Positions 35,036 to 39,775 of a stretch of 41,442 nucleotides of DNA are shown here, piece after piece. Under the pieces are notes generated by a model. It saw only the letters and a list, made by a program, of their open reading frames with translations. It ran no database searches and was not told the DNA's origin. The stretch is from Chloroflexota bacterium (lineage in GTDB: Bacteria; Chloroflexota; Dehalococcoidia; Lucifugimonadales; UBA2962), in the NCBI GenBank assembly GCA_002699485.1, contig PAAV01000058.1, positions 1 through 41,442 on the forward strand. The letters are read 5' to 3'. The first letter of the stretch is position 1. Each line of letters begins with the position of its first letter. Made by a program: the position numbers and the translations under genes.

Positions 35036-36145
35036 CTAATTGCTCTCAATCGAAATGCCAAAAGTGAAAGTTTTGCCTTTTATTTTGACTGTTGCATTCC
35101 TTTGGACTTTTTTAGAGCCTTCGTGTAGGAATGGTGATAGCGAAGAACTGGTTTCCGACAGGGCGAATTTAACTTTATTTGAAGCATTTTTAAATAGAGT
35201 TGGATCCATGGAATAAAGGATAGATTCTTGTTCAAAGAAAGCGGCCTCAGCTTCTTCAACACTTACTTGCCTGAAAACTATGTTGTCATCTGGACGTGAC
35301 TGAGCAATCAAGCCTAAGTCTGTGGAGATTACCGTGCCTATTTTTGCATAACCACCTGTTGGGCCTCTGTCTGACATTAATATAATTGGATTACCATCTG
35401 CGGGTACCTGGATGCTTCCAATTTGGGTTCCATCTGAGATGATGTCTGCGCTTGTTTTATGTTGCAGGATTGGCCCATTAAGCCGATAGCCAGTTCTGTC
35501 GCAATTGTTAGATACGATATATCTACTGTCGAAAAAGGTGTTTACAGCGGGAGAAGTAAAATTGGTATTTTGTGGACCTAATACAACTCTTATGATGTGT
35601 GAATGTCCATAATGTACTGGCTCTAAATCTTCAGGGAGAGTTCTCTCTTCGTGCTTTGTTGTTGGATTAGGCTCACCGACCAGCAATGTATCTCCTGCCA
35701 TTAATGGTCTGCCTTTATATCCTCCAAAACCTGCTGGAATATATGTGGATCGACTACCCATAATAATGGGTACATTAATACCTCCACTGATTGCCAGGTA
35801 AGCCCGCATTCCATCTTGAATTCCATCAGACGTTAATATAGAGCCTGTTTCAACCTGAATGGCAGACCAACGATCAACTTTTTGCCCATCTAGTTTTATA
35901 GATAAATCCCCTCCGGTGATCGATATTAAGGATGGATAGTTAAATTTTATCGAAGGGCCAATTACCGTCATTTCTATACATGCAGCATTCATTTTATTGC
36001 CTACCAATACGTTGGCTGCACGCAAAGCGAAGTTGTCCATTGCTCCTGATACCGGCACACCATATCTCTGGAATCCGTATCTTCCCATGTCCTGTATGCT
36101 AGATAGTAAACCTGGCTCTAATATAGTTATCGATTTTTCATTCAT
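35036..36145 (-). CDS. pxpC: 5-oxoprolinase subunit PxpC (KipA/biotin-dependent carboxyltransferase-like)
   Basis: 369 residues. Family marks are ILEPGLLSSIQDMGRYGFQR at the N-terminus, SGAMDNFALRAANVLVG, and SDRGPTGGYAKIGTVISTD. With PxpA and PxpB it forms the ATP-dependent enzyme that opens 5-oxoproline (pyroglutamate) to glutamate. It overlaps pxpB by 8 bases. It is longer than usual (about 310-330): some 40 extra residues at the C-terminus (SSSLSPFLHEGSKKV onward) look like an added tail. Confidence 0.92.
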   Translation of the reverse strand: MNEKSITILEPGLLSSIQDMGRYGFQRYGVPVSGAMDNFALRAANVLVGNKMNAACIEMTVIGPSIKFNYPSLISITGGDLSIKLDGQKVDRWSAIQVETGSILTSDGIQDGMRAYLAISGGINVPIIMGSRSTYIPAGFGGYKGRPLMAGDTLLVGEPNPTTKHEERTLPEDLEPVHYGHSHIIRVVLGPQNTNFTSPAVNTFFDSRYIVSNNCDRTGYRLNGPILQHKTSADIISDGTQIGSIQVPADGNPIILMSDRGPTGGYAKIGTVISTDLGLIAQSRPDDNIVFRQVSVEEAEAAFFEQESILYSMDPTLFKNASNKVKFALSETSSSLSPFLHEGSKKVQRNATVKIKGKTFTFGISIESN

Positions 36146-36902
36146 GACGATCTGACTGGCTATTCTCTCGATTATCTAACTGATTAATTTCAAGCTTGTA
36201 ATTATTTGATTCGATATCAGTCTTGATATCAGAGTATTCTTCTAGACTTTCTAATGGTTCGAATTTAATGTAGTCACCAGCAACTAGTAGTGACGGTTGT
36301 TCTCTATTGGGATCGAATAGGCTTAAAGGTGTACGGCCAATTAGCTGCCATCCTCCAGGACTATCATTTGGATATATACCGGTCTGTGATTCAGCGATGC
36401 CAACTGAGCCAGATGGGATCTTAATTCTAGGAGTATCTAGTCTCGGAGTGGACAGTTTTTTGTTAAGACCACCTAGATAAGGGAAACCCGGAGCGAAACC
36501 TATCATATAAACTCTATAGTTTGGTTCTGAATGGAGTGAAATTACTTCTTCAATACTTAGCTTTGAGTTTTCAGCCACGAAATTCAAATCCAGTCCAAAA
36601 TCTACCCCATATAGAGTTGGTATTTTTATTAAACGATCGTCAGATTTAGATTTCTCTCCAATATTTGACACAAGGTTTAGTATGTATGATTCAATATGTT
36701 TTCTTGTTGAAAGCGTCGGATCAAATATTACTAGCAATGATTTATAAGTTGGTACTAAGTCAATTATCCAGTCTTCTTTGCTTTCCTCAAGCTGAAACAT
36801 TAGGTTTCTAACTCTATCGTTGAGTTCAATGTCTATTGAATCTCCAAATTCAACTAATAATGCTTGGTCACCTGCGTAATTAAGATTGGGCATTTTAATC
36901 AT
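36138..36902 (-). CDS. pxpB: 5-oxoprolinase subunit PxpB (KipI-like)
   Basis: 254 residues. The KipI/AHS1 domain is clear: GDQALLVEFGD near residue 12, YMIGFAPGFPYLGGL, LDTPRIKIPSGSVGIAESQT, GIYPNDSPGGWQLIGRTP and LSLFDP. It pairs with PxpC; the pair resembles the two halves of allophanate/oxoprolinase-type ATP-dependent enzymes. The gene lies 4 bases after pxpA and overlaps pxpC by 8 bases, the canonical pxpABC arrangement. Confidence 0.93.
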   Translation of the reverse strand: MIKMPNLNYAGDQALLVEFGDSIDIELNDRVRNLMFQLEESKEDWIIDLVPTYKSLLVIFDPTLSTRKHIESYILNLVSNIGEKSKSDDRLIKIPTLYGVDFGLDLNFVAENSKLSIEEVISLHSEPNYRVYMIGFAPGFPYLGGLNKKLSTPRLDTPRIKIPSGSVGIAESQTGIYPNDSPGGWQLIGRTPLSLFDPNREQPSLLVAGDYIKFEPLESLEEYSDIKTDIESNNYKLEINQLDNRENSQSDRHE

Positions 36903-36906
36903 ATTT

Positions 36907-37674
36907 TTATATCAACTCTGATAAAGGTGTTATTTCAACTCCTGCACTTTCCAATGCAGACTTAACCTGTTTCGCAATTCCCACGGCAACTGGGTTGTCT
37001 CCGTGCATACATACACTGTCTGCATCGACAGGGACGTATTCACCGCTAATTGAAGTTATATAACCTTCAGTAACCATCTTTAAAGTTCTTTCCGCGATTA
37101 CATCAGGATCATGTATAACCGCCCCTTCGATTGCTCTGGATACTAAAGATCCATCAGCGTTAATTGCTCGATCTGCAAAAACCTCCTGAGCGACCTTTAA
37201 TCCCATGTCTTTAGCTATTGAGACCCAACGTGATCCCGTTAGTGCCAGTAAGATTAAATCTGAATCAACCTCAATAATTGCATCACAAATAGCTTTGGCA
37301 ATATTTTCATCATTTACAGCATTGTTATACATCGCTCCGTGAGGTTTCACGTGTTGTAGCTTTTTATCTGCAGTAAACGCAGTTAACGCTCCAATTTGAT
37401 ATATAACGTCATTTTTAATTTCCTGTGGATCGATACTCATATTTCGCCTGCCAAAACCTCGTAGATCGGGGTAAGAAGGGTGAGCTCCAATTCCTACTCC
37501 ATGCTTTTCAGCCAGCTGGACGGTTTTATGCATCCACATAGGGTCACCCGCATGAAAACCGCAAGCAATATTAGCAGAACTCACATTTCCAATAATTTCC
37601 TCATCGAGCCCTAGCTTGTATTGGCCAAAGCTTTCTCCGATATCACTGTTGAAATCGACTTTAGTTTTTGCCAT
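36907..37674 (-). CDS. pxpA: 5-oxoprolinase subunit PxpA (LamB/YcsF family)
   Basis: 255 residues. Conserved segments are VDFNSDIGESFGQYK at the start, NIACGFHAGDP, GIGAHPSYPDLRGFGRR, HVKPHGAMYNNA and DSVCMHGDNP. It is the catalytic partner in pyroglutamate hydrolysis to glutamate. First gene of the minus-strand pxpABC-dedA-cyclase run. The ATG is preceded by GGAG, but at about 15 bases, which is longer than ideal. Its promoter region is shared with the divergent Na+ decarboxylase genes and carries a long palindrome. Confidence 0.95.
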   Translation of the reverse strand: MAKTKVDFNSDIGESFGQYKLGLDEEIIGNVSSANIACGFHAGDPMWMHKTVQLAEKHGVGIGAHPSYPDLRGFGRRNMSIDPQEIKNDVIYQIGALTAFTADKKLQHVKPHGAMYNNAVNDENIAKAICDAIIEVDSDLILLALTGSRWVSIAKDMGLKVAQEVFADRAINADGSLVSRAIEGAVIHDPDVIAERTLKMVTEGYITSISGEYVPVDADSVCMHGDNPVAVGIAKQVKSALESAGVEITPLSELI

Positions 37675-37706: not shown

Positions 37707-37736
37707 ATTATATTGCTGATCAGCTGCCTATGCCAG
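37707..37736 (-). promoter_or_regulatory. Predicted promoter of pxpABC, overlapping the palindrome
   Basis: On the minus strand CTGGCA (37736-37731) and TATAAT (37712-37707) are 18 bases apart, about 33 bases before the pxpA start. The -10 is a perfect consensus; the -35 matches four of six positions and lies inside the left arm of the palindrome at 37729-37762, so a protein bound there would block it. A second small palindrome, GCTGATCAGC (37715-37724), lies in the spacer. Confidence 0.45.
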
Positions 37737-37762
37737 ATTTATATACATATAAATCTGGCATA
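37729..37762. promoter_or_regulatory. 34-base palindrome in the pxpA/oadG divergent control region
   Basis: Arms TATGCCAGATTTATAT (37729-37744) and ATATAAATCTGGCATA (37747-37762) are perfect reverse complements separated by AC. It lies between the divergent pxpA and decarboxylase genes, overlapping the likely -35 of pxpA and lying 7 bases upstream of the likely -35 of the decarboxylase operon. Length, symmetry and position suggest an operator for a dimeric (or double-dimeric) regulator coordinating both operons. As RNA it could also form a very stable hairpin, but it is upstream of both predicted transcription starts. Confidence 0.7.
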
Positions 37763-37768
37763 ATATGA

Positions 37769-37796
37769 TTGCTAATAACTGGATACTGTTTATATT
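37769..37796 (+). promoter_or_regulatory. Predicted promoter of the Na+ decarboxylase genes
   Basis: TTGCTA (37769-37774) and TATATT (37791-37796) are 16 bases apart, giving a start near 37803 and a leader of about 75 bases. Near the end of that leader CGGCG (37851-37855) and CGCCG (37861-37865) can form a 5-bp GC stem around CTTGT, 13 bases before the TTG start of the first gene, which may affect translation. Confidence 0.45.
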
Positions 37797-37878
37797 ACTG
37801 GTGTAAAATCGACTTTACTTCATTAATGATGAAACTTCACTTTGATTTATCGGCGCTTGTCGCCGGAATCCTAGCAAT

Positions 37879-38157
37879 TTGAAATTTGGGAGTAGACACA
37901 CTATTTCAGAAGCACTTATTAATCAATCACTAATTACTACTGCGATTGGTGCAGGTACCACCGTATGCCTTTTAATTATACTAATGATGACTTCGTTCTT
38001 TATGGGATGGATCTCGATAAGATTGGCAGACCGTGGTAGTAGATCATTCCAAGAAGATGGTACTGAAGAAGGTGACAAAAATCGTGCTAAAGCAGCTGTG
38101 ATAGCGGCATCTATTTTAAAATCCTCGGAAGAATATGATCGGAGCCACTCAAATTGA
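37879..38157 (+). CDS. Na+-pumping decarboxylase gamma-like (OadG-like) subunit
   Basis: 92 residues. One membrane helix (about residues 16-40) followed by a charged cytoplasmic tail with many Asp/Glu/Arg/Lys, the pattern of OadG/MmdD small subunits that hold the decarboxylase together. The start is TTG 37879-37881: a stop lies 11 codons upstream in frame and no ATG precedes the helix. No good Shine-Dalgarno. It overlaps oadB by 4 bases. Identification rests on size, topology and position in front of the beta subunit rather than on a sharp motif. Confidence 0.75.
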   Translation: MKFGSRHTISEALINQSLITTAIGAGTTVCLLIILMMTSFFMGWISIRLADRGSRSFQEDGTEEGDKNRAKAAVIAASILKSSEEYDRSHSN

Positions 38158-39314
38158 GTGAATTAGTAAGCTTCTTAGAGTCGACAGGGATCTTAAATAT
38201 AGATTGGCGTGATGCGATTATGCTGATGGTGGGGCTGGTTCTTGTATTTCTCGCGATTACAAAACAATGGGAGCCCTATGAACTATTACCGATAGGCTTG
38301 GGAATACTAATTGTTAATTTACCTTTAACTGGTGTTGCTATCTCGCCATCCGAAGCTGGAGGCACCCAAGGCGCTGGCATATTTGGGGTAATATTTCATT
38401 ATGGACTTTCGTTTTGGAATATTCTTCCACCCGTAATTTTTCTTGGTATAGGGGCGCTGACTGACTTTGGTCCATTGATCTCCAATCCAAAAACATTATT
38501 ACTGGGAGCAGCAGCGCAGATCGGAATATTTGTTGCTTTCTGGGGAGCTTTAGGATTGAACTTTGTTGCAGCGGATACATTTTCGTTGGGAGAGGCTGCA
38601 TCAATTGGAATTATTGGAGGAGCTGACGGTCCTACCACTATATTTTTATCTGCAAATTTAGCTCCTGACATATTAGGTATAACAGCAGTGATCGCATATA
38701 CGTATATGGCAGCCGTACCATTTATACAGCCGCCGATAATGAAACTCTTAACCACAAAGAAAGAGAGATCTATTGTGATGAAGCCGGTAAGAGAAGTTTC
38801 AAAAACTGAAAAAATGATATTTCCGATCATAGCACTGATCATAATATTATTAGTTGTCCCTCGCGCTGCGCCTTTGATCTCGATGTTAGTTGTCGGAAAT
38901 CTTTTTAAAGAAAGTGGAGTTGTCCCTCGGCTCACTAGTGCCGCGTCAAATGAATTATTAAATATAGCCACAATACTATTAATGCTCACTGTTGGAACAC
39001 AGCTACAAGCTGATCTGGTTTTTAGACTAGAAACCGTTCTTATACTAGTATTGGGGCTAGTTGCATTTGCGGCGGGAACTACTGGAGGCATATTATTTGC
39101 TAAGTTCATGAACTTATTCTTGAAGGATAAAATTAATCCACTAATAGGTTCTGCGGGTGTATCCGCTGTACCAATGGCAGCTAGAATTTCTCATCATATG
39201 GGACAACAAGAGAATCCTAACAACTTTTTATTACATCATGCATTAGGGCCGAATGTTGCGGGTGTTATTGGCTCAGCCGTTGTTGCTGGTGTATTCCTTA
39301 GTTTAATCGGGTAG
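38154..39314 (+). CDS. oadB: Na+-translocating decarboxylase beta subunit (OadB/MmdB/GcdB family)
   Basis: 386 residues, about ten membrane helices. IGIIGGADGPTTIFLSANLA contains the essential aspartate (D158) of the Na+ channel, and the C-terminal part has GVSAVPMAARISHHMGQQ and ALGPNVAGVIGSAVVAG. The subunit decarboxylates carboxybiotin and exports Na+, making a sodium gradient. TTG start (38154-38156) overlaps the upstream stop, with GGAG 9 bases before it. The alpha (carboxyltransferase) subunit is not in the window, so the acid decarboxylated (oxaloacetate, methylmalonyl-CoA, glutaconyl-CoA or malonate) is unknown. Confidence 0.93.
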   Translation: MSELVSFLESTGILNIDWRDAIMLMVGLVLVFLAITKQWEPYELLPIGLGILIVNLPLTGVAISPSEAGGTQGAGIFGVIFHYGLSFWNILPPVIFLGIGALTDFGPLISNPKTLLLGAAAQIGIFVAFWGALGLNFVAADTFSLGEAASIGIIGGADGPTTIFLSANLAPDILGITAVIAYTYMAAVPFIQPPIMKLLTTKKERSIVMKPVREVSKTEKMIFPIIALIIILLVVPRAAPLISMLVVGNLFKESGVVPRLTSAASNELLNIATILLMLTVGTQLQADLVFRLETVLILVLGLVAFAAGTTGGILFAKFMNLFLKDKINPLIGSAGVSAVPMAARISHHMGQQENPNNFLLHHALGPNVAGVIGSAVVAGVFLSLIG

Positions 39315-39322
39315 ATCAATAA

Positions 39323-39775
39323 ATGACACGCAAAATAAAAATAACAATAGATGGCACTGCTTATTTAGTTGAAGTTAAAGACATAAATGCCGACCCTATT
39401 GAAATGACCGTAGATGGAGAAAAAGTTTCTGTCACTTTTGGAGCCGAAGATACAGCTACACCAATACAGAGAATTGAAACTAAAGACGTTGAGGTGGATG
39501 AAGTATCAAAAGATGATCTAAAAGTTTCTGAAACTCCTAAAACAGTTAGTGCAGTTGGACCTATAAAAGACTTCACCGCTCCGATGCCAGGCATGATTAT
39601 ATCTATTGCTGTAAAGGTAGGAGATCAAGTAGTGCCTGGAGATGAGATATGTGTTTTAGAGGCTATGAAAATGCAACAGACTCTTCGTGCCGAATGGACA
39701 GGAATTGTCGATGAAATTCATGTCGAAACTGGCCAGCAGATTCAGGGTGGAGACAAAATATTGGGTTTAGCTTAA
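39323..39775 (+). CDS. Biotin carboxyl carrier protein of the Na+-pumping decarboxylase
   Basis: 150 residues. The C-terminal biotinyl domain has VLEAMKMQQT with K116 as the biotinylated lysine and PMPGMIISIAVKVGDQV before it. The N-terminal ~60 residues form a separate beta-rich part (IKITIDGTAYLVEVKD), and a Val/Glu/Lys/Thr-rich linker joins them, as in MmdC/GcdC or the C-terminus of OadA. It lies 8 bases after oadB. Here the carrier is a separate polypeptide, as in methylmalonyl-CoA and glutaconyl-CoA decarboxylases. Confidence 0.92.
   Translation: MTRKIKITIDGTAYLVEVKDINADPIEMTVDGEKVSVTFGAEDTATPIQRIETKDVEVDEVSKDDLKVSETPKTVSAVGPIKDFTAPMPGMIISIAVKVGDQVVPGDEICVLEAMKMQQTLRAEWTGIVDEIHVETGQQIQGGDKILGLA

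Follow-up and report, generated by a model that had tools for sequence, protein, structure and literature searches.

A long palindrome between the divergent pxpABC and decarboxylase operons of a marine SAR202 bacterium as a putative operator

The promoter region between the pxpABC operon and a divergent operon of a Na+-translocating decarboxylase, found in the 1.9 Mb metagenome-assembled genome (MAG) of a marine SAR202 bacterium (Chloroflexota), contains an inverted repeat beyond chance. Judging from its sequence and setting, we consider it more probable than other readings, with moderate confidence, that this palindrome is a DNA operator of pxpABC for a putative regulator, perhaps common to the decarboxylase operon. 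The observations behind this proposal are the symmetry of the element, its single copy, the conservation of its arms around a free spacer in three species and its place between two predicted promoters.

The palindrome and its promoter setting

The palindrome spans 34 bases at 37729-37762 of the window, i.e. of the whole stretch of 41,442 nucleotides analysed, and is assigned to neither strand. Its 16-base arms, TATGCCAGATTTATAT on the left (37729-37744) and ATATAAATCTGGCATA on the right (37747-37762), are 100% complementary and enclose an AC centre. These arms and positions, given in a preliminary description of this DNA, are all exact, and its judgement that such symmetry is very unlikely by chance holds as well: with a pairing probability p(pair)=0.263 at 38.5% GC and loops of 0-8 bases, perfect 16-base arms are expected 2e-4 times per window and 0.009 times per 1.9 Mb genome. 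Across 268 kb of this genome (G000; the window plus a sample), arms of 16 bases or longer occur in only three palindromes, this dyad included. The other two bear the T runs typical of terminators, and among the remaining long palindromes as a whole several resemble terminators, which the dyad at 37729-37762 does not. Comparison of five genomes of the genus delimits a conserved core, TGCCAGATTTATA-N4-TATAAATCTGGCA, made up of the half-site TGCCAGATTTATA on the plus strand (37731-37743), a 4-base spacer (37744-37747, no strand) and the same half-site TGCCAGATTTATA on the minus strand (37748-37760).

The genes to the left of the palindrome, all on the minus strand, are pxpA (LamB/YcsF; 36907-37674; PF03746, NF003814), pxpB (36138-36902; TIGR00370) and a pxpC-like gene (35036-36145), which scores above cut-off for PF02626 and TIGR00724 and below cut-off for NF045499 (PxpC). 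On its right, the plus strand first encodes a small protein of membrane type in the OadG position (37879-38157; no family matches, conserved in the genus, real start uncertain), then the beta subunit of a Na+-translocating decarboxylase of the OadB type (38154-39314; PF03977, TIGR01109) and lastly the biotin carboxyl carrier protein (BCCP) of the decarboxylase (39323-39775; PF00364). In five of five species, the frame conserved for the OadG-position protein opens with ATT-TCA-GAR (ATT at 37903) after a GGAG motif, and none of the five has an in-frame ATG further upstream; the ATT at 37903 is a possible start codon. Alpha subunits are encoded apart from the beta/carrier operon: on contig C55 (L099:10141-13716), an mmdA-like gene adjoins an oadA-like one; both score high, yet below the curated equivalog/subfamily cut-offs. 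Since this genome carries the two alpha genes next to each other on a different contig, the idea that PxpBC serves as the missing carboxyltransferase alpha subunit is weakened. Downstream of the oad promoter, MMKLHFDLSALVAGILAI was considered as a leader peptide and rejected, its frame being broken in G002 and unconvincing as coding sequence.

The promoter scan returned CTGGCA-18-TATAAT (10/12) as the best minus-strand match of the sigma-70 type, with the predicted -35 of pxpABC at 37731-37736, within the left half-site, and the predicted -10 at 37707-37712. The best plus-strand match, TGGATA-18-TAAAAT (9/12), has its predicted -35 at 37780-37785 and its predicted -10 at 37804-37809, where it ends. 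In agreement with the preliminary description, the palindrome thus overlaps the putative -35 of pxpABC and lies just upstream of that of the decarboxylase operon, ending 17 bases before TGGATA. Both -10 boxes are also seen in SAR202 families beyond this one that share the arrangement: of 17 regions inspected outside the genus, 14 have ATTATA upstream of pxpA, and in 10 TGTANAAT or GTACAAT (a TACAAT/TAGAAT box) precedes oadG. With the two predicted promoters and -10 boxes that are common to other families, the dyad would therefore lie between both putative start sites and outside both predicted transcripts; counted from these start sites, which we infer from the promoter matches, its centre would be at about -45 for pxpA and at about -70 for the oad operon.

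It is hence improbable that the palindrome acts as RNA, namely as a leader-transcript hairpin serving as attenuator, terminator or stability element. If transcribed, the palindrome could fold into a stem of 15 pairs closed by a 4-base loop, but both predicted promoters point away from it, a T run is absent, the scan found no terminator-like sites, the base changes in G001 and G003 are non-compensatory, and Rfam gave weak matches, each well short of its gathering score. No covariation was seen in the 5' leader of the oad operon.

When up to 3 mismatches are allowed, the full dyad is still single-copy in the genome. The half-site search proposed in the preliminary description gave 8 further 13-mers at one mismatch in G000, nearly all of them within genes and none in a dyad, and a genome-wide regulon of half-sites was rejected on these counts. 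A looser dyad pattern (18 fixed bases, at most 3 mismatches) occurs 4 more times in G000, 3 times in open frames and once in an intergenic place without clear meaning. Dispersed palindromic repeats of the REP/MITE type and recombination sites such as dif would, like the dyad, be palindromic and intergenic; the chance that the dyad is one of these is nevertheless very slight, because many copies per genome are expected of such repeats and, as to dif, a sharp GC-skew switch is absent at the palindrome.

Conservation within the genus

The divergent pxpA / oadG-oadB-BCCP locus is kept in four further genomes of the same genus (G001-G004). Between G004 and G000, 26/26 arm bases are identical and 4/4 centre bases differ, with 24/34 matches over centre plus flanks (arms versus rest, one-sided Fisher p=0.002); for G001, the arms match at 25/26 bases against 23/34 for centre plus flanks (Fisher p=0.006), the sites in these comparisons being not fully independent. 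The left half-site is identical in G000, G001 and G004 and matches at 12/13 bases in G003, and the right one is identical in G000 and G004, with 12/13 in G001 and 10/13 in G003, while the spacer varies by lineage, none of its columns being invariant across the five genomes. Dyad symmetry declines from 13/13 in G004 and 12/13 in G001 to 9/13 in G003 and 6/13 in G002, in which it is lost. The half-sites are more conserved than spacer and flanks in G004 and G001, which is not seen for G003 and G002. Altogether, the arms are favoured over the spacer in three species, and G003 and G002, in which both operons are present, keep the dyad poorly. Conservation in close relatives with both operons, the test named in the preliminary description, thus comes out in favour of the palindrome in G004 and G001 and against it in G003 and G002. 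The weak dyad of the one and the lost dyad of the other, together with its absence from the other families inspected, count against an operator.

Such a pattern could also arise if the palindrome were a non-functional product of local mutation, e.g. the perfection of a weak inverted repeat by template switching, that is kept by shared ancestry. Its restriction to the genus, its varying symmetry and its loss in G002 would fit, as would a different weak dyad that G002 bears at the same place, as good as which were 7 of 100 shuffles. However, arms that are identical throughout between G000 and G004, around a centre that differs at every base, speak against it, and we regard this explanation as unlikely. 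The weak dyad of G002 (L018) reads AGCTACCTATA-N7-TATAGGTGGCT and lies upstream of pxpA at about the position of the palindrome.

The oad promoter is embedded in a block (37773-37812, plus strand) that is identical at 40/40 bases in G000, G001, G003 and G004. It surpasses in conservation the dyad, which is degraded in G003, and the decarboxylase operon may therefore have a control of its own. Accordingly, one alternative holds that the operator serves pxpABC alone and that the decarboxylase promoter is independent, relying on its 40-base block. That the pxpA -35 falls within the dyad and the oad -35 lies 17 bases beyond it, and that the block is intact even where the dyad is degraded, argue for this alternative; the retention of the divergent pair across 15 families argues against it, favouring some shared control. 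We consider it a tenable possibility, if one that falls short of even odds. The block also exceeds nearby coding sequence in conservation and contains TACTG twice at 12-base spacing, and no second copy of it was found in the sampled sequence.

Putative operator function and candidate regulators

If the palindrome is an operator, its two TGCCAGATTTATA half-sites, facing each other across the 4-base spacer, would be recognised by a transcription factor acting as a homodimer (or dimer of dimers). Most simply, the bound factor would repress pxpABC, because one half-site contains the pxpABC -35 box; alternatively, it could be an activator that contacts the polymerase from about -45 of pxpABC. From about -70 of the oadG-oadB-BCCP start, the site could act on the oad promoter too. 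We infer the binding of a protein, the direction of its control and its joint action on both operons. The proposal of the preliminary description that one regulator serves both operons is in line with the dyad's location between the promoters and with the pairing of the genes in 15 families, and is at odds with its degradation in G003 and its absence from G002 and the other families inspected; joint control is plausible from geometry. The palindrome is probably a functional operator, a role most secure for pxpABC and plausible for both operons.

Operators are an ordinary sort of switch. Should the palindrome be bound as proposed, it would open a concrete way into the gene regulation of SAR202, a marine group of which MAGs alone turned up here and whose genomes, in the searches made, are without several common regulator families. 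These searches covered the five genus genomes (G000-G004; MAGs 77-91% complete) and the TetR, IclR, CRP, GntR, LysR and Lrp/AsnC families. TetR-family, IclR-family and CRP-type (CRP/FNR) HTH regulators were not found in any of the five, and GntR regulators are limited to one in G002, which is without the dyad, with none in G000, G001, G003 and G004. LysR genes number two per genome, and matches to the RAM domain (Lrp/AsnC) occur in 5/5 genomes, the open frames in G000, G001 and G004 measuring 146-148 aa; the LysR and Lrp-type genes are the candidates left by these searches. When compared by eye with the Escherichia coli Lrp consensus, the dyad gave no convincing match. By the families searched, the regulator repertoire of the five genomes is small, with GntR nearly absent and TetR, IclR and CRP-type regulators not found. 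Also within the window no regulator gene was seen among the listed ORFs, as had been noted before, a DNA-binding-domain scan having covered part of these ORFs. That no cognate regulator emerged from the searches made, and that a regulator with one site and no gene next to it is unusual, count against the operator reading.

Known operators offer partial likenesses. In Corynebacterium glutamicum, the GntR-family regulator PxpR binds a 17-base operator of pxpTABC, AGATTGTTCAACAATCT, and pxpR lies divergently next door (PMC13274462). Like that operator, the dyad is an inverted-repeat site in an intergenic region beside a pxp operon; unlike it, the dyad measures 30-34 bases, differs in sequence, has no adjacent regulator and occurs in genomes (G000, G001, G003 and G004) where GntR was not found. 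Given the different 17-base site and the regulator beside its target in C. glutamicum, the dyad does not qualify as a PxpR site on the features tested.

The Bacillus kip operon, with its pxp homologues, is controlled by KipR of the IclR family, a family of which no gene was found in the five genus genomes. TetR-type repressors such as QacR use long, even-centred dyads of about 28-30 bases that overlap a promoter, much as the dyad does, but a TetR-family gene was likewise not found in the five genomes. LysR-type (LTTR) sites are often common to divergent genes; they have odd-centred T-N11-A boxes and, as a rule, a LysR gene beside them. The position between divergent promoters and the presence of LysR genes match this type, whereas the even centre of the dyad and the lack of an adjacent LysR gene do not. 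A bolder version, to which we give a low probability, is that a SAR202-specific regulator of a class outside those searched senses pyroglutamate or a related metabolite and, through one operator, controls both pyroglutamate hydrolysis and the Na+-pumping decarboxylase, the beta and carrier genes of which pair with pxpABC and not with the alpha subunits. If true, pyroglutamate use would be coupled to sodium energetics.

Pairing of pxpA and decarboxylase genes beyond the genus

The divergent pairing of pxpA with a decarboxylase operon of the Na+-pump type is order-wide and is a more general lead than the palindrome. In 29 genomes from 15 SAR202 families, pxpA and a decarboxylase-type carrier gene lie divergently within 4 kb. 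None of the inspected inter-promoter regions outside the genus, with the same gene order, has a dyad clearly above shuffles, and the palindrome is confined to one genus. As the palindrome is genus-confined and the pairing extends to 15 families, the palindrome is not what holds the gene pair together; with clear dyads absent from the regions inspected outside the genus, the pairing is old and the palindrome young. Judging from the pairing, pyroglutamate hydrolysis and biotin-dependent decarboxylation may be metabolically linked, and a joint search of the literature available on pxpA/decarboxylase pairing turned up no paper. In two of the 29 genomes (G034 and G053), the carrier gene is too near for an oadB in between; most of the others inspected have oadG/oadB-like frames between pxpA and the carrier gene. 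In nine genomes of family f28, the two genes are codirectional and 3.2-3.6 kb apart.
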